This document shows, in pieces, positions 985-10,897 of a stretch of 44,572 nucleotides of DNA. The notes beneath the pieces were generated by a model, which did no database searches, was not told where the DNA came from, and saw nothing but the letters and a program-made list of their open reading frames with translations. The position numbers and the translations under genes were made by a program. Numbering within the stretch: the first letter of the stretch is position 1; each line of letters begins with the position of its first letter. The DNA comes from Candidatus Lindowbacteria bacterium RIFCSPLOWO2_12_FULL_62_27 (GTDB taxonomy: Bacteria > Lindowbacteria > 2-12-FULL-62-27), in the NCBI GenBank assembly GCA_001784175.1, contig MFPR01000027.1:579-45150 (forward strand). Reading direction: 5' to 3'.

Positions 985-1058
985 TGGAGAGTCGTCCAAA
1001 GGTAGGACCGCAGATTCTGGATCTGCGTATGCAGGTTCGATTCCTGCCTCTCCAGCCA
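985..1058 (+). tRNA. tRNA-Gln(CTG)
   Basis: Acceptor TGGAGAG/CTCTCCA with the U1-A72 pair typical of tRNA-Gln; anticodon loop TTCTGGA gives CTG; T-loop TTCGATT is canonical. Encoded CCA at 1056-1058. First gene of the array. Confidence 0.93.
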
Positions 1059-1080
1059 ATTTTGTTTCGGGCAGTTTGGT

Positions 1081-1152
1081 GTGGTCGGAGCATGGCGGTC
1101 TGTGCGGCCGGTTGTGGCCCGGCATGCCTGGGTTCGACTCCCAGCGATCACC
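1081..1152 (+). tRNA. tRNA-His(GTG), array copy
   Basis: Acceptor GTGGTCG/CGATCAC, anticodon loop TTGTGGC (GTG), T arm CTGGG-TTCGACT-CCCAG. Discriminator C73 fits His, but the base before position 1 is T rather than the G-1 normally needed by HisRS. No encoded CCA. A second, more canonical tRNA-His lies at 4646. Confidence 0.85.
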
Positions 1153-1167
1153 CCCGACTGCCTGGAT

Positions 1168-1252
1168 GGGCGTGTGGCAGAGCGGCGATTGCACCTGACT
1201 GTAGATCAGGCGGGCCTCTGGCCCTTCGGTGGTTCGAGTCCATCCACGCCCA
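1168..1252 (+). tRNA. tRNA-Tyr(GTA)
   Basis: Acceptor GGGCGTG/CACGCCC, anticodon stem CCTGA/TCAGG with loop CTGTAGA (GTA), long variable arm normal for bacterial Tyr, T-loop TTCGAGT, discriminator A. Confidence 0.93.
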
Positions 1253-1257
1253 TTTTT

Positions 1258-1331
1258 CCCGGTCGGAAGGAGATGGTCTCCTTGCCGCTCTCATAAGGCG
1301 GACATTCCGGGCTCGATACCCGGGGCCGGGA
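1258..1331 (+). tRNA. tRNA with CAT anticodon, probably elongator Met
   Basis: Acceptor CCCGGTC/GGCCGGG, anticodon stem CCGCT/GGCGG with loop CTCATAA, T arm CCGGG-CTCGATA-CCCGG (T54 replaced by C). The D arm is an unusually strong hairpin (AAGGAG/CTCCTT). It could be Ile(CAU), but the array has its own Ile(TAT), so elongator Met is more likely. Confidence 0.8.
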
Positions 1332-1359
1332 CAAATTCTCAAGAAGGAGGTCGGAGAAA

Positions 1360-1587
1360 ATGGAGACGTACGTTTTGAAGTACACGGTGCGGTTCGTGAC
1401 GATTGACGATCCCACGGCGCGTCAGACTACTCAGCGGATTTTGACGACAGTTGGGGAATGTCTGAAAGACACACTCTCCGACCTGCCCTTGGTGGCGGAC
1501 ACGTTGGAGACGGAGGCGCGGTGTGTTCGTCACGGAGATCGGACTAACCGCGATATTCTGACTGGAAAATCTTCCGCATCAACATAA
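1360..1587 (+). CDS. 75-aa protein of unknown function inside the tRNA array
   Basis: The only convincing protein gene within the tRNA block. A near-perfect ribosome-binding site (AAGGAGG, about 1345-1351) precedes the ATG at 1360, and the stop is one base before the next tRNA. The product starts METYVLKYTVRFVTIDDPTA, suggesting a beta strand, a turn and a helix (residues about 5-40), then an acidic stretch and a polar tail; two cysteines. There is no signal peptide or membrane segment and I do not recognise the family. Because it lies between two tRNA genes in the same orientation, it is probably on the tRNA precursor transcript. A tRNA-binding role is a guess from position only. Confidence 0.65.
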   Translation: METYVLKYTVRFVTIDDPTARQTTQRILTTVGECLKDTLSDLPLVADTLETEARCVRHGDRTNRDILTGKSSAST

Positions 1588-1588
1588 C

Positions 1589-1667
1589 TGCGGAGGGGAG
1601 GTGGACGGCGGAGCCGTCTTCGAGGGCCCATAACCCTCTTAAGCCGGTGCGACTCCGGCCTCCGCTA
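1589..1667 (+). tRNA. divergent initiator-like tRNA-Met(CAT)
   Basis: Anticodon stem GAGGG/CCCTC with loop CCCATAA has the three stacked G-C pairs that mark initiator tRNAs. The acceptor pairs over GCGGAG/CTCCGC, leaving a T1-T72 mismatch, which parallels the unpaired 1-72 of bacterial initiators. The D region is about 26 nt instead of about 19 and holds a strong GACGGC/GCCGTC hairpin. T-loop is TGCGACT. Identity is inferred from these hallmarks; the D region makes it clearly unusual. Confidence 0.6.
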
Positions 1668-1668
1668 T

Positions 1669-1753
1669 GGACTCGTCGCCTAATTGGAATGGCCCCAGAC
1701 TCTTAATCTGGCGGGCGTTACGCCCATTGGGAGTTCGAGTCTCCCCGGGTCCA
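1669..1753 (+). tRNA. tRNA-Lys(CTT) with long variable arm
   Basis: Acceptor GGACTCG/CGGGTCC, anticodon stem CCAGA/TCTGG with loop CTCTTAA (CTT), T arm GGGAG-TTCGAGT-CTCCC. The variable region is 17 nt (1712-1728) with a GGGCG/CGCCC hairpin. Bacterial tRNA-Lys normally has about 5 nt there; long arms belong to Leu, Ser and Tyr. Confidence 0.88.
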
Positions 1754-1760
1754 TTTGTAT

Positions 1761-1843
1761 TCCGAGGTCGCCTAATTGGTCGGGCAGCGCACTGTTAATG
1801 CGCCGCGGATTTCGCACTGTGGGTTCGAATCCCACCCTCGGAG
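1761..1843 (+). tRNA. tRNA-Asn(GTT) with long variable arm
   Basis: Acceptor TCCGAGG/CCTCGGA, anticodon stem GCGCA/TGCGC with loop CTGTTAA (GTT), T arm GTGGG-TTCGAAT-CCCAC, discriminator G. The variable region is 15 nt (1804-1818) with a GCG/CGC hairpin, again a long-arm shape with a non-class-II anticodon. Confidence 0.88.
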
Positions 1844-1909
1844 TTTTTTCAAACGGTTTGAAGGAGGTGATGGAATTGAAATCGGACAAAGACGGTAAAG
1901 GGTAGTGAT

Positions 1910-1982
1910 GGGCTTGTAACTCAATTGGCTGAGTACCGGACTTTTAATCCGGGAGATGTGGGTTCGAGTCCCACCGGGCCCA
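1910..1982 (+). tRNA. tRNA-Lys(TTT)
   Basis: Acceptor GGGCTTG/CGGGCCC, anticodon stem CCGGA/TCCGG with loop CTTTTAA (TTT), ordinary 5-nt variable loop, T-loop TTCGAGT, discriminator A. The 66-nt gap before it (1844-1909) has an AAGGAGG sequence but only an 11-codon frame. Confidence 0.93.
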
Positions 1983-1988
1983 AGATAC

Positions 1989-2073
1989 GGCGCAGTGGTG
2001 GAACTGGGATACACGCGAGTCTCAGAAACTCGTGCTCTATTCGAGCGTGAGAGTTCGAATCTCTCCTGCGCCA
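1989..2073 (+). tRNA. tRNA-Leu(CAG)
   Basis: Acceptor GGCGCAG/CTGCGCC, anticodon stem CGAGT/ACTCG with loop CTCAGAA (CAG), normal long variable arm for Leu, T arm GAGAG-TTCGAAT-CTCTC, discriminator A. Confidence 0.93.
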
Positions 2074-2078
2074 TTTTT

Positions 2079-2149
2079 GCGGCATTCGTATAGGGGCAAT
2101 ACATCACGTTGCCAACGTGAAGACACGAGTTCAATTCTCGTATGCCGCT
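2079..2149 (+). tRNA. tRNA-Gly(GCC)
   Basis: Acceptor GCGGCAT/ATGCCGC, anticodon stem TCACG/CGTGA with loop TTGCCAA (GCC), T arm ACGAG-TTCAATT-CTCGT, discriminator T. Confidence 0.93.
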
Positions 2150-2155
2150 CCAAGT

Positions 2156-2295
2156 GGAGGGTGAATCGATCGGGGATCGGCGCTGTGTGCTACACAGTTG
2201 GTCCGCCATGCGCGGATAGGGGTCGGCCGTTCGCGACATCCGTGTCGCTCGGCGGCACTTCCTCCGTCCATGGAGGTCGGGACCTTCGCCCTCCG
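2156..2295 (+). tRNA. tRNA-Ser(GCT) interrupted by a 54-nt T-loop insertion
   Basis: Acceptor GGAGGGT (2156-2162) pairs with GCCCTCC (2288-2294). Anticodon stem GCTGT/ACAGT with loop GTGCTAC (GCT); variable arm TCCGC/GCGGA. The gene is 140 nt because a 54-nt block sits in the T-loop. Removing one copy of the flanking GGTCGG repeat restores a 7-nt T-loop, GTCGGGA (2276-2282), closed by a short T stem ending CCTTC. The loop resembles ATCGAGA of the uninterrupted tRNA-Ser(TGA) next to it. Confidence 0.8.
2222..2275 (+). repeat. 54-nt T-loop insertion, copy 1
   Basis: Block inside tRNA-Ser(GCT), bounded by direct repeats GGTCGG (2221-2226 and 2275-2280). It contains two hairpins: GCGACA/TGTCGC at 2233-2248 and CCTCC/GGAGG at 2261-2276. 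It matches copy 2 (2612-2665) at 52 of 54 positions, though the host tRNA bodies differ. Far too short for a group I or II intron. It may be a spliced intron of unknown type, a retained T-arm extension, or a tiny mobile sequence with a 6-nt target duplication. Confidence 0.75.
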
Positions 2296-2299
2296 TTAC

Positions 2300-2384
2300 G
2301 GAGAGTCAACCTCGCAGGGCGAGGCACTGGTTTGAAACCAGAGGGTCCGCGAAAGTGGATGAGGATCGAGACCTCGGCTCTCCG
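2300..2384 (+). tRNA. tRNA-Ser(TGA)
   Basis: Acceptor GGAGAGT/GCTCTCC, anticodon loop TTTGAAA (TGA) on a CTGG/CCAG stem, normal Ser long variable arm, T-loop ATCGAGA (T54 replaced by A). Uninterrupted; it provides the template for reading the two interrupted Ser genes. Confidence 0.9.
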
Positions 2385-2390
2385 CAAGAT

Positions 2391-2463
2391 GCGGGCGTGG
2401 TGTTCAACAGCAGCATGACAGTCTTCCAAACTGTCGGTGCCGGTGCAATTCCGGTCGCCCGCT
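2391..2463 (+). tRNA. tRNA-Gly(TCC)
   Basis: Acceptor GCGGGCG/CGCCCGC, anticodon stem ACAGT/ACTGT with loop CTTCCAA (TCC), T-loop TGCAATT (position 55 is G instead of T), discriminator T. Confidence 0.9.
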
Positions 2464-2469
2464 CAAAAC

Positions 2470-2543
2470 AGCCTCGTCGTCCAACTGGACAGGACACCTC
2501 TTTGCGAAGGAGGAGATTGCGCGTTCAAGTCGCGCCGAGGCTA
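2470..2543 (+). tRNA. tRNA-Arg(GCG)
   Basis: Acceptor AGCCTCG/CGAGGCT, anticodon stem CCTCT/GGAGG with loop TTGCGAA (GCG at 2504-2506), T arm GCGCG-TTCAAGT-CGCGC, discriminator A. Most bacteria read CGU/CGC with ACG edited to inosine by TadA; this gene reads them without editing. Confidence 0.9.
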
Positions 2544-2546
2544 TAG

Positions 2547-2685
2547 GGAAGGTGAACCTCGCGGGCGGGGCGCTGTTTGGAAGACAGTCGGTCCGCTTAA
2601 AGCGGATGCGGGTCGGCCGTTCGCGACATCCCTGTCGCTCTGCGGCACTTCCTCCGTCCATGGAGGTCGGGACCGCCGCCTTCCG
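2547..2685 (+). tRNA. tRNA-Ser(GGA) interrupted by a 54-nt T-loop insertion
   Basis: Acceptor GGAAGGT (2547-2553) pairs with GCCTTCC (2678-2684). Anticodon stem GCTGT/ACAGT with loop TTGGAAG (GGA); variable arm TCCGC/GCGGA. Same architecture as tRNA-Ser(GCT): removing 54 nt leaves T-loop GTCGGGA (2666-2672) on a GCGG/CCGC stem. Stem bases differ from the other gene but covary to keep pairing, which supports the fold. Confidence 0.8.
2612..2665 (+). repeat. 54-nt T-loop insertion, copy 2
   Basis: Block inside tRNA-Ser(GGA), bounded by GGTCGG at 2611-2616 and 2665-2670. It differs from copy 1 at two positions, one in the first hairpin's tetraloop (G to C) and one in the linker (G to T); both hairpin stems are intact. 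Confidence 0.75.
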
Positions 2686-2689
2686 TTGT

Positions 2690-2775
2690 GGAGAGTGAAA
2701 CCGGGAAGCCCGATCGCCGTTCCGAAGACGGATGGCCCCGCCATGCGGGGTGGGGTGCGATACCTCCGCTCTCCG
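2690..2775 (+). tRNA. tRNA-Ser(CGA)
   Basis: Acceptor GGAGAGT/GCTCTCC, variable arm CCCCGC/GCGGGG, anticodon loop TCCGAAG (CGA at 2723-2725) on a CCGT/ACGG stem. Position 33 is C, not the near-universal U. T-loop TGCGATA. No insertion. Confidence 0.83.
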
Positions 2776-2779
2776 AAAT

Positions 2780-2851
2780 AGGCCGGTAGTATCAACAGTA
2801 GAACGTCGGTCTCCAAAACCGAAGGTCTCGGGGCAGAACCGAGCCGGCCTG
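2780..2851 (+). tRNA. tRNA-Trp(CCA)
   Basis: Acceptor AGGCCGG/CCGGCCT, anticodon stem TCGGT/ACCGA with loop CTCCAAA (CCA), discriminator G. T arm CTCGG-GGCAGAA-CCGAG has a non-canonical loop shared in pattern with the Cys and Asp genes here. Confidence 0.88.
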
Positions 2852-2865
2852 TGACTGAAAGGAAT

Positions 2866-2898
2866 CCCCGAGGTACTCGCCCGAAGGGCGGGTCGGGG
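2866..2898 (+). other. hairpin between tRNA-Trp and tRNA-Phe
   Basis: Outer stem CCCCGA/TCGGGG and inner stem CGCCC/GGGCG with loop GAA in a 52-nt gap between tRNAs. It is not a tRNA and has no T-run. It could be a processing or stability element of the precursor transcript. Confidence 0.5.
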
Positions 2899-2903
2899 AC
2901 CAT

Positions 2904-2976
2904 GGGCACTGAGCAGGCGTAGTCGTTGCGTCCGGCTGAAGACCGGAAGAGCGTGGTGCGATCCCACGAGTGCCCA
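2904..2976 (+). tRNA. tRNA-Phe(GAA)
   Basis: Acceptor GGGCACT/AGTGCCC, anticodon stem TCCGG/CCGGA with loop CTGAAGA (GAA), T arm CGTGG-TGCGATC-CCACG (55 is G), discriminator A. Confidence 0.9.
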
Positions 2977-2979
2977 CTT

Positions 2980-3049
2980 CGCGGCGAGCAGAGAAGCTCT
3001 GGGATGGTCTGCAAAACCATCAAAGTCGGGGCGGTACCGACCGCCGTGT
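2980..3049 (+). tRNA. tRNA-Cys(GCA)
   Basis: Acceptor CGCGGCG/CGCCGTG, anticodon stem ATGGT/ACCAT with loop CTGCAAA (GCA), T arm GTCGG-GGCGGTA-CCGAC. The T-loop follows the GGCRGNA pattern rather than TTCRANN. Discriminator T, typical of Cys. Confidence 0.87.
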
Positions 3050-3052
3050 CAC

Positions 3053-3123
3053 GCCCGATTAGGTCAGTGGCAGACCAACCGTCTTGTAAGCGGTGAACGT
3101 CGGCTCGATTCCGACATCGGGCT
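3053..3123 (+). tRNA. tRNA-Thr(TGT)
   Basis: Acceptor GCCCGAT/ATCGGGC, anticodon stem ACCGT/GCGGT with loop CTTGTAA (TGT), T arm GTCGG-CTCGATT-CCGAC, discriminator T. Confidence 0.92.
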
Positions 3124-3130
3124 TACCTGC

Positions 3131-3203
3131 GCCCTCCTAATTCAATTGGACAGAAACGGGAGTTTCTACCTCTCGGATGCGTGTTCGAGTCACGCGGAGG
3201 GCA
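3131..3203 (+). tRNA. tRNA-Arg(TCT)
   Basis: Acceptor GCCCTCC/GGAGGGC, six-pair anticodon stem CGGGAG/CTCTCG with loop TTTCTAC (TCT), T arm GCGTG-TTCGAGT-CACGC, discriminator A. Confidence 0.92.
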
Positions 3204-3209
3204 ATTCTC

Positions 3210-3280
3210 GCCGCCATAGTTCAGTGGCAGAACAGAAAACTCGTAATTTTCAGACCTGCGTTCGATTCGCAGTGGCGGCT
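3210..3280 (+). tRNA. tRNA-Thr(CGT), array copy
   Basis: Acceptor GCCGCCA/TGGCGGC, AT-rich anticodon stem GAAAA/TTTTC with loop CTCGTAA (CGT), T arm CTGCG-TTCGATT-CGCAG. Same anticodon as the chromosomal tRNA-Thr at 10825 but a different body. Confidence 0.92.
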
Positions 3281-3284
3281 TTTC

Positions 3285-3356
3285 GGGGGCGTAGTGAGAA
3301 CGATAACACGGCTGGTCTGCACCCAGCAGATGAGAGTTTGAATCTCTCCGCCTCCA
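3285..3356 (+). tRNA. tRNA-Ala(TGC)
   Basis: Acceptor GGGGGCG/CGCCTCC, anticodon stem GCTGG/CCAGC with loop TCTGCAC (TGC at 3318-3320), T arm GAGAG-TTTGAAT-CTCTC. Position 33 is C rather than U. The G3-U70 pair (third acceptor pair) is present, the main AlaRS identity element, which supports Ala. Confidence 0.87.
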
Positions 3357-3361
3357 CTTTT

Positions 3362-3447
3362 CGGCGTGTGGCTGAACGGTAAAAGCGCCGTCCTGATAAG
3401 GCGGTGGGCTGAAGTAGTCCGCGTGCGTTCGACTCGCACCGCGCCGA
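3362..3447 (+). tRNA. tRNA-Ile(GAT) with long variable arm
   Basis: Acceptor CGGCGTG/CGCGCCG, anticodon stem CCGTC/GGCGG with loop CTGATAA (GAT), T arm GTGCG-TTCGACT-CGCAC, discriminator A. The variable region is 18 nt (3405-3422) with a GGGCT/AGTCC hairpin; normal Ile tRNAs have about 5 nt. Confidence 0.87.
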
Positions 3448-3455
3448 GCATTTAC

Positions 3456-3548
3456 CCACGGGTAGCATAGCGGCCAATGCAGCAGGCCTATAACCTGCGT
3501 TAGCTCCGGACTGGGGCGAGATCGTGGGTTCGAGTCCCACCCCGTGGA
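3456..3548 (+). tRNA. tRNA-Ile(TAT) with long variable arm
   Basis: Acceptor CCACGGG/CCCGTGG, anticodon stem GCAGG/CCTGC with loop CCTATAA (TAT at 3489-3491), T arm GTGGG-TTCGAGT-CCCAC. Variable region 25 nt (3499-3523) with a GCTCC/GGGGC hairpin. Bacteria usually read AUA with CAU carrying lysidine made by TilS; a genomically encoded UAU is uncommon. Confidence 0.88.
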
Positions 3549-3569
3549 TTTGATGTGTGAGGTACATAC

Positions 3570-3644
3570 GGCTCGGTGGTGTAGCAGCCTGCACACGGCT
3601 CTGTCACAGCCGAGGTACGAGGGCAGCACTCGTCCGAGCCGCCA
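3570..3644 (+). tRNA. tRNA-Asp(GTC)
   Basis: Acceptor GGCTCGG/CCGAGCC, anticodon stem CGGCT/AGCCG with loop CTGTCAC (GTC), T arm ACGAG-GGCAGCA-CTCGT with the GGCRGNA-type T-loop, discriminator G, encoded CCA at 3642-3644. One base separates it from the next tRNA. Confidence 0.88.
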
Positions 3645-3645
3645 T

Positions 3646-3721
3646 CAGGGAATGGGATAATCTGGTAGTCCGCCGCACTTGGGACGCGGTCGTCCGAGTT
3701 CAAATCTCGGTTCCCTGACCA
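3646..3721 (+). tRNA. tRNA-Pro(TGG)
   Basis: Acceptor CAGGGAA/TTCCCTG, anticodon loop CTTGGGA (TGG) on a CCGC/GCGG stem, T arm CCGAG-TTCAAAT-CTCGG, discriminator A and encoded CCA. Confidence 0.9.
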
Positions 3722-3733
3722 AACTTCAAGTAC

Positions 3734-3808
3734 GGGCGCGTGGTCCAGCAGCGAAGACATCAGTCCTACAAACTGAAAACCTCGGTGCAAGTCCGAGCGT
3801 GCCCACCA
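3734..3808 (+). tRNA. tRNA-Val(TAC)
   Basis: Acceptor GGGCGCG/CGTGCCC, anticodon stem TCAGT/ACTGA with loop CCTACAA (TAC), T arm CTCGG-TGCAAGT-CCGAG (55 is G), discriminator A and encoded CCA. The following 57 nt before tRNA-Arg(CCT) hold no supported gene. Confidence 0.9.
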
Positions 3809-3865
3809 AATCTGACCGACCGGATGGAGGAAATGTCGCGGGCGCCAGGGATGGCGCAGGAGCGA

Positions 3866-3942
3866 CCTCTCGTCGCCCAATTGGAAAAGGCACCGATTTC
3901 CTAAATCGGGGACTGCGCGTTCGAATCGCGCCGAGAGGCCCA
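3866..3942 (+). tRNA. tRNA-Arg(CCT)
   Basis: Acceptor CCTCTCG/CGAGAGG, anticodon stem CCGAT/ATCGG with loop TTCCTAA (CCT), T arm GCGCG-TTCGAAT-CGCGC, discriminator C and encoded CCA. Confidence 0.91.
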
Positions 3943-3955
3943 GTAAGACCAATGA

Positions 3956-4028
3956 CCGCTCGTAGTGAAACTGGATATCACGCGACGCTTCGAACGTCGT
4001 AATGAGGGTTCGAATCCTTCCGAGCGGA
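3956..4028 (+). tRNA. tRNA-Arg(TCG)
   Basis: Acceptor CCGCTCG/CGAGCGG, anticodon stem CGACG/CGTCG with loop CTTCGAA (TCG), T arm GAGGG-TTCGAAT-CCTTC, discriminator A. It would read CGA and CGG. Confidence 0.92.
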
Positions 4029-4033
4029 TTTGT

Positions 4034-4116
4034 GGCGATGTGGCGGAACGGAATACGCGGCTGTTTCAAGAACAGTTGATCGTAAGATCGTGAGAGTTCG
4101 ACTCTCTCCATCGCCA
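4034..4116 (+). tRNA. tRNA-Leu(CAA)
   Basis: Acceptor GGCGATG/CATCGCC, anticodon loop TTCAAGA (CAA), long variable arm with GATCG/CGATC-type pairing, T arm GAGAG-TTCGACT-CTCTC, discriminator A. Confidence 0.92.
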
Positions 4117-4121
4117 ATTTT

Positions 4122-4205
4122 GCGGGCGTGGCGGAATGGGATACGCGGCGGATTTAAGACCCGCTGGGGCAGAGCCCCGTGCAGGTTCAAGTCCTGTCAC
4201 CCGCA
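4122..4205 (+). tRNA. tRNA-Leu(TAA)
   Basis: Acceptor GCGGGCG/CACCCGC with one C-A mismatch, anticodon loop TTTAAGA (TAA) on a GCGG/CCGC stem, long variable arm GGGGC/GCCCC, T arm GCAGG-TTCAAGT-CCTGT, discriminator A. Confidence 0.9.
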
Positions 4206-4208
4206 TTC

Positions 4209-4295
4209 GGCCGAGTGGTGGAACTGGAATACACGCGCGGTTGAGGTCCTCGTGGACGAAAGTAGTCCTTGCGAGTTCGAGTCTCGCCTCGGCCA
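4209..4295 (+). tRNA. tRNA-Leu(GAG)
   Basis: Acceptor GGCCGAG/CTCGGCC, anticodon loop TTGAGGT (GAG), stem with one C-T mismatch, long variable arm, T arm GCGAG-TTCGAGT-CTCGC, discriminator A. Confidence 0.88.
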
Positions 4296-4300
4296 GTTTT

Positions 4301-4373
4301 GGGGCGGTAGGCGAATGGTAGAGCCGCCGGCCTTTCAAGCCGGAGTCTGTGGGTTCAAGTCCCATCCGCCCTG
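4301..4373 (+). tRNA. tRNA-Glu(TTC)
   Basis: Acceptor GGGGCGG/CCGCCCT (G1-U72 wobble), anticodon stem CCGGC/GCCGG with loop CTTTCAA (TTC), T arm TGTGGG-TTCAAGT-CCCAT, discriminator G. Confidence 0.92.
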
Positions 4374-4377
4374 TTGT

Positions 4378-4450
4378 GGGGGTATCGGCTAATCGGCAGG
4401 CCGCCGTGTTCTCAGCGCGGAAACCGCGGGTTCGAATCCCCGTACCCCTG
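4378..4450 (+). tRNA. tRNA-Glu(CTC)
   Basis: Acceptor GGGGGTA/TACCCCT, anticodon stem CCGTG/CGCGG with loop TTCTCAG (CTC), T-loop TTCGAAT, discriminator G. The T stem pairs firmly over only three positions (GGG/CCC). Confidence 0.87.
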
Positions 4451-4455
4451 GTCAT

Positions 4456-4530
4456 TGGGGAGTCGTCTAATAGGTAGGACGCGAGACTTTGGATCTCGCT
4501 ATGCAGGATCGAAGCCTGCCTCCCCAGCCA
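4456..4530 (+). tRNA. tRNA-Gln(TTG)
   Basis: Acceptor TGGGGAG/CTCCCCA, anticodon stem CGAGA/TCTCG with loop CTTTGGA (TTG), T arm GCAGG-ATCGAAG-CCTGC, discriminator G and encoded CCA. Closely resembles the first gene of the array, tRNA-Gln(CTG), and ends the dense block. Confidence 0.92.
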
Positions 4531-4645
4531 TTTTCGAACAAATACGAACGTTGGCGCGGGCACGCCAGCGGCGCACAGGTGACCAAGTATCTTGGATTTC
4601 ATTTGTGCGTTCCGCCAATGGATTCTAAACGTGCCCGGAGCCAGA

Positions 4646-4718
4646 CGTTGGTTAGCTCAGCAGGCAGAGCATCAGGCTGTGAACCTGAGAGTCGCGGGTT
4701 CGAATCCCGCACCAACTT
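4646..4718 (+). tRNA. tRNA-His(GTG), canonical type
   Basis: Anticodon stem TCAGG/CCTGA with loop CTGTGAA (GTG), D arm starting TAGCTCAG, T arm GCGGG-TTCGAAT-CCCGC, acceptor GTTGGT/ACCAAC. The core is much closer to a standard chromosomal tRNA than the array members, and it lies 115 nt beyond them. The first acceptor pair is unclear (C opposite T). It duplicates the array's His anticodon. Confidence 0.85.
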
Positions 4719-4734
4719 CGGGTGGAAACACCCG
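4719..4734 (+). other. hairpin after tRNA-His
   Basis: CGGGTG/CACCCG with a GAAA tetraloop immediately after the tRNA. No T-run follows, so it is more likely a 3' processing or stability hairpin than a terminator. Confidence 0.5.
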
Positions 4735-5070: not shown

Positions 5071-6177
5071 ATGTTCTTGATTGGATACCGGAAGATTCGT
5101 TCCTACGAGAGGGGCCTGTACTTCTACGATGGGGAGTTCCGGAAAATTCTGGCCACAGGCCGACATTGGTTCGTGGATCCTCTGAACCGCATCCGGATCG
5201 ATGTTGTGTCCCAGCGCGACCCCTGGCTGGACCATGACAAGCTCGACATCATCGTCAAGTCCGGTGTCCTCAAGGACGAGGCGGTGGTACTGGACCTGAA
5301 GGACTATGAGCGCGCGCTCGTGTGGATCGACGGCCGGTTCAGCCGCGTGCTGGATGCAGGTCTCTACGCGATGTGGTCCAAGTTCCGCGACATCAAGACG
5401 GAGATCGTTGACGCGCGGGCCGTGCTGTTCGAGCACAAGAGCATCGACGTCATCCTGAAGTCGGGGGGTGTCGATGCAGTGCTCAATGTCTTCAACGTCG
5501 AGGAGGGTCACGCCGGCGTCTATTTCAAGGACGGTGAATACGTCAAGACACTGGCTCCGGGCAAGTATGCGACGTGGAAGAACGTCGGCAAGGTCAAGTT
5601 CTACCACCTCGACGTGCGCGAGACGGTACTCGACGTGGCCGGCCAGGAGATCATGACGGCCGACAAGGTCACGCTCCGGATGAACGCGATCGTGACCTAT
5701 CGCATCGTTGATGCCCGCAAGTCCGTCGAAACGGTCGGAGACGTGGCGCAGGCGCTGTATCGTGAGGCGCAGCTGGCGCTTCGTGCCGCAGTCGGCACAC
5801 GAGAGCTTGAGCCGCTTCTGGTCGACAAGACCGACGTTGCGAAGGAACTCGAGTCCGTCATTCGCCGACGCGCGAGCGAGTTCGGCATTCACGTGATCGG
5901 TCTTGGCATTCGAGACATCATCCTGCCGGGCGACATGAAGACGTTGCTCAACAAGGTGCTCGAGGCCAAGAAGGCGTCCGAGGCGAACGTGATTCTGCGA
6001 CGCGAGGAGACGGCAGCCATGCGCAGCCAGCTCAACACGGCGAAGCTCATGGAGGACAATGCGGTTCTGATGCGCCTCAAGGAACTGGAGGTGCTGGAGA
6101 AGGTCGCGGGCGCGTCTAAGCTGAGCGTCGTGCTGGGTGAGAAGGGATTGGCCGAGCGTGTGGTCAATCTGCTGTGA
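5071..6177 (+). CDS. SPFH/Band-7 (slipin-like) protein with three N-terminal repeats
   Basis: A 368-aa SPFH-domain protein. Residues about 190-300 form the Band-7 core (LDVAGQEIMTADKVTLRMNA, then VGTREL and GLGIRDIILPGDMK), followed by a helical tail (300-350) for oligomerisation. The first 190 residues contain three copies of a module with consensus ER-hydrophobic-DG-x-F-x3-L-x-x-G-x-Y/H-x-x-W/F (about 11-35, 79-103, 145-170). There is no clear N-terminal membrane anchor, unlike typical stomatins. Start chosen for the strong GGGAGGTGA site before the ATG. SPFH/slipin genes have been noted beside RNA-repair genes such as rtcB; no rtcB is visible here, so a link to the tRNA array is inference from position. 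Confidence 0.88.
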   Translation: MFLIGYRKIRSYERGLYFYDGEFRKILATGRHWFVDPLNRIRIDVVSQRDPWLDHDKLDIIVKSGVLKDEAVVLDLKDYERALVWIDGRFSRVLDAGLYAMWSKFRDIKTEIVDARAVLFEHKSIDVILKSGGVDAVLNVFNVEEGHAGVYFKDGEYVKTLAPGKYATWKNVGKVKFYHLDVRETVLDVAGQEIMTADKVTLRMNAIVTYRIVDARKSVETVGDVAQALYREAQLALRAAVGTRELEPLLVDKTDVAKELESVIRRRASEFGIHVIGLGIRDIILPGDMKTLLNKVLEAKKASEANVILRREETAAMRSQLNTAKLMEDNAVLMRLKELEVLEKVAGASKLSVVLGEKGLAERVVNLL

Positions 6178-6193
6178 GCAGTAAGGAGGAACG

Positions 6194-6346
6194 ATGTTTA
6201 CGGTAGACGAGTTTGAAAGCGGCGGAGGGGGGCCGGATCAAAAACGCAGCGGCGGCCCCCCTCCTTGGAGCCGGGTGATCCGAACAAACAGGCAACACCG
6301 TATTCAACGCCCGCATGGTGTGAGTGGCAGCACGTCGCCGGGGTAA
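6194..6346 (+). CDS. possible 50-aa Gly/Pro-rich small protein
   Basis: A near-ideal ribosome-binding site (AAGGAGGA) precedes ATG 6194, 17 nt after the SPFH stop. The frame begins MFTVDEFESGGGGP and is rich in Gly, Pro and Arg. It runs into the tRNA-Thr gene at 6309, so gene and tRNA overlap. A very stable inverted repeat (GGAGGGGGGCC / GGCCCCCCTCC, about 6222-6262) lies within it and may be the real functional feature. No family recognised; it could be translated or just an RNA leader. Confidence 0.4.
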   Translation: MFTVDEFESGGGGPDQKRSGGPPPWSRVIRTNRQHRIQRPHGVSGSTSPG

Positions 6347-6380
6347 GGCGGAGGTCTCGGATCAAAACCGAGTGCGGGCT
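6309..6380 (+). tRNA. outlying tRNA-Thr(GGT)
   Basis: Acceptor GCCCGCA/TGCGGGC, anticodon stem TCGCC/GGCGG with loop GGGGTAA (GGT at 6342-6344), T arm CTCGG-ATCAAAA-CCGAG, discriminator T. Position 33 is G instead of U. It lies between the SPFH and HNH genes and supplies the one Thr anticodon class missing from the main array. Confidence 0.8.
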
Positions 6381-6407
6381 TGATCAATTATGTTCAGGAG
6401 GAATGAT

Positions 6408-7061
6408 GTGACTGGTGTACTGGTTCAACCAACGTTGCTTTTGAATTCCAGTTTTCTGCCGGTGTCGGTCATCCGTGTGATGGAGGCAATCTGTCTGCTC
6501 GTTACTTCCAAAGCCGATCTAATAGACGGTGACGAGAGGGAACCGATCCGTTCGCAAAGATTGTCGATCCCTCTGCCGAGGGTCGTACGCCTGTTGAATT
6601 TCAACGGGATTCCGTCGAACCCGGCCTGGTCAAGATTGAAGGTGATTTACCGGGACGACATGACCTGCGCCTGGTGCGGCAAGCGCGGCCGTATGGAGGA
6701 ACTGGACTGCGACCACATCATTCCCCGATCACGGTGGCACGTTTGTCCGCCGAATCTTCGCCGAGCATACGAAGTTCCACGAGTGAAACTCCAGAACATT
6801 GCAGCCCCTTGGAATTCGTGGATGAACACCCTCGCGGCCTGTCGAAAATGCAACGCCGCCAAGGGAAATCTCTATCCATGGGAGATGGGCCACCGCCCCC
6901 TCTGGTCGCCGTACGAGCCGGAATACGTCCCATCCATCATTGTCAGCTTCGAGCGAGCAAAAAATCTTGGCTGGCTGGATTATCTGCTCACGCGCCGCGG
7001 GACGCTCGTCTATCCGTCGGGAGTGCGTGCCGTGGGTGTGCCCTCCAGAAAACGGATATAG
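6408..7061 (+). CDS. HNH endonuclease
   Basis: A 217-aa protein of the HNH nuclease superfamily. The metal-binding frame is visible: CAWC (residues 87-90), the catalytic LDCDHIIPRS segment with D102-H103, and the closing NTLAACRKCNAAKGN (140-154) with the second Cys pair and conserved Asn. The N-terminal QPTLLLNSSFLPVSVIRVM is typical of a widespread bacterial HNH subfamily found in phages and mobile elements. The GTG at 6408, six bases after AGGAGG (6396-6401), is preferred over ATG 6390, which lies upstream of that site. HNH genes recur in mobile elements with tRNA arrays; this one may nick DNA during transfer or homing. Confidence 0.9.
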   Translation: MTGVLVQPTLLLNSSFLPVSVIRVMEAICLLVTSKADLIDGDEREPIRSQRLSIPLPRVVRLLNFNGIPSNPAWSRLKVIYRDDMTCAWCGKRGRMEELDCDHIIPRSRWHVCPPNLRRAYEVPRVKLQNIAAPWNSWMNTLAACRKCNAAKGNLYPWEMGHRPLWSPYEPEYVPSIIVSFERAKNLGWLDYLLTRRGTLVYPSGVRAVGVPSRKRI

Positions 7062-9681: not shown

Positions 9682-10788
9682 ATGGGCGTTCGAGCGATCA
9701 CGCGATTACCGAGTGGCGAATATCGCGTCAATTTCTATTACTGGAATCAGATCGGCATGAAGCATCGCGGGCGGAAGAAATTCCGTACGCTGCGGCTTGC
9801 AGAGACGTTCTATGCCGAGAGGATTCGTGAATTTGAAGCGAAGGTGCATGTTGGCTCGAAGGAGCGAGGGTCGATCACGGTGAAGCAATTCCTGGACCAG
9901 CATTATTATCCATGGGCGCAGAAGGCCAAGAAATCTTATCCCGTGGAAAGAGTGTTCATGAGGAATACCGAAGTGCGATGGGGCGAACGCCGACTCTCGT
10001 CAATCACTGTGTTTGATATTGAAAAGTGGCGGATTGAAATGAAGCAGAAGGTCTGCCCGGCGACCGTCAGCCGCCGACTGGCGTATCTTCGGTCCTTCTT
10101 CAAATTCGCGCATGCCGGCATGACGGACGAGGATGGCCACACGGTCGGCGGCGGATTCATCGGCGACAATCCGATGCGGCATGTTCGAAGCCCGAAAACG
10201 AAGCTGCCTCTTCGACCGCCGACGATTCTGGCGCCGGATGAAATTGCGAGGCTCAAGCCCGATGGGACGCGCGGGATGGATCTCGTTTTATTCTGCATTT
10301 ATTCGGGGATGCGCCGGGGCGAGATATTCCGGATGCGGTACGAGGACATAGATCGCGTGGCCGGCGTCATCCGGATCCCCGTCACGAAAAACGACGAGCC
10401 GCGGATCATTCCGTTGACGAAACAGCTTGCCGGTATTATTGACAGACAACCGGTGGACGATTCGGGATTTGTTTTTTCATGGAAGGGAAGGCAAACTAGG
10501 GACTGTCGTAGCGCGATCAATCAGGCGCTCTGGCGCGTGGGGATCACACGGCGGGTCCGGATGCATGACCTTCGCCACACGTTCGGCTCGTACCTGGCCA
10601 TGAACGGGGTAGACTTGGACGAAAGGATGGCTCTGATGGGGCACAAGACAATCACAGCGGCGCGGATTTATACCCATTATTATACGAAACGCCTGTCGGA
10701 GTCGATGGAGAGGCTGATGGAGGCCTATGAGACGGCCGAGGAGAAAACAAAAGGGCACAAAAAGGGCACTGAGGCGATTGCCGTATGA
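9682..10788 (+). CDS. tyrosine recombinase / integrase
   Basis: A 368-aa phage-type integrase. An N-terminal arm-binding domain (about 1-55) and a SAM-like core-binding domain (about 60-150) precede the catalytic domain. Catalytic residues are visible: Arg in SGMRRGE (about 211), Lys in VTKNDEPR (about 236), HDLRHT (H295, R298), GHK (H321) and the nucleophile in IYTHY (Y330). It probably inserted the element at the tRNA-Thr gene 36 nt downstream. The orientation is unusual, because the tRNA's 5' end, not its 3' end, faces the integrase. The regulator upstream shares its operon. Confidence 0.92.
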   Translation: MGVRAITRLPSGEYRVNFYYWNQIGMKHRGRKKFRTLRLAETFYAERIREFEAKVHVGSKERGSITVKQFLDQHYYPWAQKAKKSYPVERVFMRNTEVRWGERRLSSITVFDIEKWRIEMKQKVCPATVSRRLAYLRSFFKFAHAGMTDEDGHTVGGGFIGDNPMRHVRSPKTKLPLRPPTILAPDEIARLKPDGTRGMDLVLFCIYSGMRRGEIFRMRYEDIDRVAGVIRIPVTKNDEPRIIPLTKQLAGIIDRQPVDDSGFVFSWKGRQTRDCRSAINQALWRVGITRRVRMHDLRHTFGSYLAMNGVDLDERMALMGHKTITAARIYTHYYTKRLSESMERLMEAYETAEEKTKGHKKGTEAIAV

Positions 10789-10824: not shown

Positions 10825-10897
10825 GCCAACGTAGCTCAGACGGTAGAGCAACGCACTCGTAATGCGTAGGTCGGCGGTTCGATTCCGCCCGTTGGCT
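10825..10897 (+). tRNA. tRNA-Thr(CGT), chromosomal, probable integration site
   Basis: Acceptor GCCAACG/CGTTGGC, D arm TAGCTCAG, anticodon loop CTCGTAA (CGT), T arm GGCGG-TTCGATT-CCGCC, discriminator T, followed by a T-run. Canonical features set it apart from the array. It marks the junction between element and chromosome. No second copy of a tRNA fragment is visible in the window, so the other attachment site is probably further left. Confidence 0.95.

Follow-up and report, generated by a model that had tools for sequence, protein, structure and literature searches.

Two tRNA-Ser genes of a bacterial tRNA array carry nearly identical 54-nt blocks inside their T-loops, which raises the question of whether such a block is a new kind of tRNA intron, a retained T-arm extension or a tiny mobile sequence, the three readings that a first-pass annotation of the locus had left side by side. 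The window, that is, the whole 44,572-nt stretch of DNA analysed here, corresponds to positions 579-45150 of contig C27 of G000, a 4.39-Mb MAG (94% complete, 1.1% contaminated), and was compared with two further genomes of the same family, G001 and G002 (the latter being the public MAG NC_groundwater_1274_Ag_S-0.2um_61_68); all three are MAGs. Judged from its sequence, the block is very likely not an intron but one copy of a dispersed palindromic element that is non-autonomous and usually 54 bp net.

The tRNA island

The interrupted genes belong to a tRNA array on an integrase-bearing island, in which the array is followed by a Band 7 gene, tRNA-Thr(GGT), an HNH endonuclease gene and an integrase gene with tRNA-Thr(CGT), and then by the chromosomal genes ftsZ, ftsA and a Mur ligase gene.

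985-4719, + strand: tRNA array with a nearly complete isotype set (ARAGORN/Rfam)
5071-6177, + strand: Band 7/SPFH protein gene; a homologue adjoins a viral tRNA array
6309-6380, + strand: tRNA-Thr(GGT), an empty site for the element (island alignment with the G002 orthologue L024)
6390-7061, + strand: HNH endonuclease gene
9682-10788, + strand: tyrosine integrase gene, adjoining tRNA-Thr(CGT) at 10825-10897

On the viral contig L013 (IMGVR_UViG_3300007072_000340), an array of 36 tRNAs immediately precedes a Band 7 gene that is 66% identical to that of the window, which suggests a phage origin for the module of array and Band 7 gene; in a BLAST search of phage records, the region showed tRNA-Gly similarity only. 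Relative to tRNA-Thr(CGT), the integrase gene is on the 5' side; tRNA-targeting integrases usually lie downstream of the 3' end. Just before the window start, contig C27 has an assembly gap (a run of N, L012 540-600) with identical sequence on both sides, so the left end of the island may be incomplete. A second, unrelated short palindromic repeat, GGAATCCCCGAGGTACTCGCCCGAAGGGCGGGTCGGGGACC, is found between tRNA-Trp and tRNA-Phe (2850-2898), with copies 88-90% identical in four G002 contigs.

Interrupted and uninterrupted tRNA-Ser genes

The array has four divergent tRNA-Ser genes, of which two (GCT and GGA) are interrupted and two (TGA and CGA) are not.

2156-2295, + strand: tRNA-Ser(GCT), T-loop interrupted (acceptor GGAGGGT/GCCCTCC, anticodon loop GTGCTAC, variable arm TCCGC/GCGGA, discriminator G)
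2222-2275, + strand: 54-nt element copy 1, two hairpins, in the Ser(GCT) T-loop (R1/R2 covariance model match 2225-2280)
2300-2384, + strand: tRNA-Ser(TGA), uninterrupted (T-loop ATCGAGA)
2547-2685, + strand: tRNA-Ser(GGA), T-loop interrupted (acceptor GGAAGGT/GCCTTCC, anticodon loop TTGGAAG)
2612-2665, + strand: 54-nt element copy 2, in the Ser(GGA) T-loop (R1/R2 covariance model match 2615-2670)
2690-2775, + strand: tRNA-Ser(CGA), uninterrupted (T-loop TGCGATA)

Both blocks are present as first described: they differ at two positions (52/54 identical) within tRNA bodies that are 73% identical, and each is bounded by the GGTCGG direct repeats already noticed, which make the register ambiguous and allow the block to slide by 6 nt. 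Excision leaves each gene with an acceptor stem of 7 bp and with anticodon, variable and T stems; the anticodons are GCT and GGA, the discriminator is G in both, and the enforced cloverleaf is 0.2-1.8 kcal/mol above the minimum-energy fold. The claim of perfect serine tRNA pairing after removal of the block stands for the stems but has to be relaxed at pair 49-65, which is a T/C mismatch in both genes. Likewise, Ser(TGA) between them is uninterrupted as stated, but its loop is not the canonical TTCRANN that had been expected.

Recovery by covariance models, by which the proposed fold was to be judged, turned out to be uninformative. ARAGORN and Rfam RF00005 miss all four array tRNA-Ser genes, interrupted or not, on account of their short D-arms and non-canonical T-loops, and since the uninterrupted genes are missed too, the silence of the models says nothing for or against the block. 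The T-loops of array Trp, Asp and Cys, read directly from the sequence, are GGCAGAA, GGCAGCA and GGCGGTA, that is, of the GGCRGNA type, so the excised loop GTCGGGA fits a T-loop class of the array. Its missing A58 was considered as an argument against an intact ancestor and rejected, as array Trp, Asp and Cys also have G54/G58 loops. Non-canonical T-loops, of the G54/G58 type GGCRGNA or similar, are found in array Ser (2156-2775), Cys (2978-3050), Asp (3560-3645) and Trp (2780-2851); the host's own tRNAs are unlike these, and array Ser genes also have very short D-arms.

Dispersed copies and an empty site

The 26-nt core of the block was matched twice, against zero matches by chance in dinucleotide shuffles. 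The search for other contexts that had been proposed earlier, run as a pattern search of 60 genomes, found three further exact core matches, all in G002 and none in tRNA-Ser. Two of them keep the reading frame of the genes that hold them, an OppD-like ABC ATPase and an AsmA-like ORF, and the third sits immediately at the 3' end of tRNA-Thr(GGT) (L024). Near matches in G005, G027 and G050 were rejected as chance coding matches, and the exact block patterns had zero matches in viral contigs.

The copy at tRNA-Thr(GGT) is decisive for a dispersed element. The G002 island (Band 7, tRNA-Thr, HNH) is 88.7% identical over 2 kb to positions 5084-7055 of the window, and the sole large indel is the element, which is absent from the window tRNA-Thr(GGT) and present at the orthologous G002 site. 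The locus is thus an orthologous pair of empty and filled sites. An orthologue of the tRNA-Ser array, sought in G001 and G002 for an empty tRNA-Ser site, was not found there.

Structure and distribution of the element family

Two covariance models were used: R1, built from five copies, which found diverged subfamilies, many of them in G001, and R2, built from 22 copies. R2 counts are lower bounds, part of the candidates having been scored, and amount to at least 6 copies in G000, at least 22 in G001 and at least 8 in G002 (at least 36 in total), with only one other positive genome among 145. One of the window copies is a third, diverged member of the family:

3812-3867, − strand: element copy between tRNA-Val(TAC) and tRNA-Arg(CCT) (R2, 60.9 bits, E 2.3e-10)

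The only copies known inside tRNAs are the two in the tRNA-Ser T-loops. The consensus reads GGYCG-[hairpin, ATCC loop]-CGRC-ACTTCC-[hairpin, TCC loop]-TCGG. Nearly all full-length matches span 56 model bases and a few 62; if one terminal GG is counted as target, the net length is 54 (18 codons) or 60, both multiples of three. The two conserved hairpins that had been predicted from the blocks are supported by covariation, with 98.9% of cells paired and 17 both-side changes in 11 copies (0 of 500 shuffles as high), and 94.4% and 45, respectively, in 22 copies. A degenerate core pattern was matched 12 times in G000, 21 times in G001 and 10 times in G002 (reversed control: 1, 0 and 0). In G001, one copy (L033) is nested within an older one, with a net gain of 54 nt as read from the sequences.

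The R2-positive genome outside the family represents a different phylum-level group; of 39 genomes of that group, 10 contain matches. These are weaker (best 57 bits), and in one genome of this other phylum, G182, a related-looking 56-nt two-hairpin repeat is present in at least 17 mostly near-identical copies on many contigs (L147, L156). Common descent of the other-phylum copies with the window element appears likely from their sequences. At a further locus (L089, G120:C185:6097-6198), two related-looking elements stand in tandem within a single open reading frame.

Insertions in protein genes and mobility

In-frame copies are found in PepA, OppD, HsdR, GFO/IDH and other proteins. All ten scanned ORFs with an embedded copy have Pfam domains; the domain alignment itself spans the element in four of them (PepA, OppD C-terminal domain, HSDR_N and GFO_IDH_MocA_C), and in others it falls between domains. 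PepA homologues in the PDB align with a clean gap of 19 residues exactly at the element. The element is stop-free in most frames, and the peptides that it encodes come from either strand. The dispersed copies, the orthologous empty site, the nested copy and the in-frame copies in protein genes support the last of the three original readings, the ‘tiny mobile sequence’.

We propose that the element duplicates little or none of its target on insertion and survives where it is tolerated: in frame in proteins, in intergenic regions, within other copies and in the T-loops of redundant phage-type tRNA-Ser genes. Genes would tolerate it because it is short, folds on itself, keeps the frame and has no stop codon in most frames. 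A tract of 65 bases is common to the two tRNA copies, and blocks so alike in bodies only 73% identical point to recent local spread; the second copy is probably a product of local gene conversion from the first, or else of a very recent second insertion into a like target. That a transposition machinery moves the element we infer. Y1 transposase genes of RAYT size are present in all three family genomes (24 Y1_Tnp matches); an R1 search found no element copies near eight tested Y1_Tnp (RAYT-like) loci, so that no transposase linked to the element was found at these loci, and no target-site duplication was provable.

Fate of the interrupted tRNAs

The host chromosome has intact tRNA-Ser genes for GCT, TGA, GGA and CGA (L129, L132), and with all four anticodons covered the interrupted array genes are redundant and their loss is affordable. 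The block is probably retained at the RNA level, as a T-arm extension that folds on its own, splicing being neither needed nor indicated, and the interrupted tRNAs are most likely impaired or inactive, to go by their sequences; the host would tolerate such impairment thanks to its intact chromosomal Ser(GCT) and Ser(GGA).

Less probable, yet to be taken seriously, is that the extension is functional, with the element RNA retained in a mature tRNA that still decodes serine codons. With the block kept, the enforced Ser(GGA) cloverleaf (-67.3 kcal/mol) is only 1.5 kcal/mol above the minimum (-68.8 kcal/mol), and the genes for tmRNA and RNase P RNA that harbour RPEs (Rickettsia palindromic elements) presumably still work (PMC2229807). 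The Ser(GCT) cloverleaf, however, is 8.4 kcal/mol above its minimum (-65.8 against -74.2 kcal/mol), and the insertion disrupts a T-loop that contacts the D-loop and the ribosome; that all stems are intact would favour function, but is a weak argument because the insertion is recent. We consider it improbable that the interrupted genes are expressed as charged tRNAs that are put to use with two hairpins extending from the T-loop as an extra domain; if this were true, a selfish repeat would have given a phage tRNA set a new tRNA architecture, perhaps one that resists host tRNA-targeting defences.

A new kind of tRNA intron, in which the 54 nt would be cut from the precursor and the T-loop rejoined, is very improbable. 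The excised genes fold as cloverleaves, their T-loop GTCGGGA resembles the GGCRGNA loops of array Trp, Asp and Cys, and Lak megaphage tRNAs carry unexplained introns (PMC6784885). Against this, protein genes keep the same sequence as codons, and the tRNA-splicing endonuclease domain (PF01974, tRNA_int_endo) has zero matches in the three family genomes, control archaea being positive. The first-pass annotation had rightly held 54 nt to be too short for a self-splicing intron, and a search for group I/II introns gave only tRNA matches in the window at the Rfam gathering score. Moreover, the similarity of the two tRNA copies far exceeds that of their host genes, which fits recent spread better than an old intron. 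An ancient T-arm extension inherited by the array tRNA-Ser family would explain the same position of both copies in paralogous genes, but is refuted by the dispersed copies, the same block being found elsewhere in the sister genome G002, and sits badly with array Ser(TGA) and Ser(CGA), which have no block, and with blocks that are 96% identical in bodies that are 73% identical.

Comparison with known systems

A 2014 review lists group I/II introns only as structural diversity of bacterial tRNA genes (PMC4033280), and an element of the present kind in a tRNA T-loop is unreported in the literature searched, the original RPE papers lying outside that search; this is seemingly the first case inside tRNA T-loops. 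The element extends RPE/REP-like selfish DNA inside genes beyond Rickettsia to uncultured bacterial lineages, as a compact unit that usually has a net length divisible by three and persists in many protein genes. The interrupted tRNA-Ser genes provide a natural test of how far a tRNA tolerates insertion, and they call for caution, as what looks like an intron in a phage or MAG tRNA can be a mobile repeat. The Lak megaphage tRNA introns are similar in being short inserts in a phage-type tRNA set, but a link to a dispersed repeat is unreported for them in the part of the Lak report consulted. Bacterial MITEs share the small, non-autonomous, structured and dispersed character of the element, which differs from them in having neither long terminal inverted repeats nor a proven target-site duplication.

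By their described features, RPEs and REPs are the closest known kinds, with RPEs the closer of the two. REPs are short palindromic repeats that can be intragenic (PMC3733652), and the element resembles the REP/RAYT system in this, in showing no clear target duplication and in the Y1-transposase genes of the same genomes. It is unlike REPs in being a two-hairpin unit of constant length and in ending in GGYCG and TCGG, with GTAG/CGTC at neither end. RPEs are palindromic selfish DNA of many families, inserted in frame in conserved proteins and also in tmRNA and RNase P RNA genes (PMC2229807, PMC10969869). The window element is likewise dispersed, palindromic and in frame in conserved protein genes, and also enters structural RNA genes, here tRNA-Ser(GCT) and tRNA-Ser(GGA). 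In contrast to the Rickettsia elements, which are 105-146 bp long (about 100-150 bp being the length expected of the class), it is G+C-rich, usually 54 bp net and made up of two short hairpins; it belongs to an unrelated deep bacterial lineage and also occupies tRNA genes.
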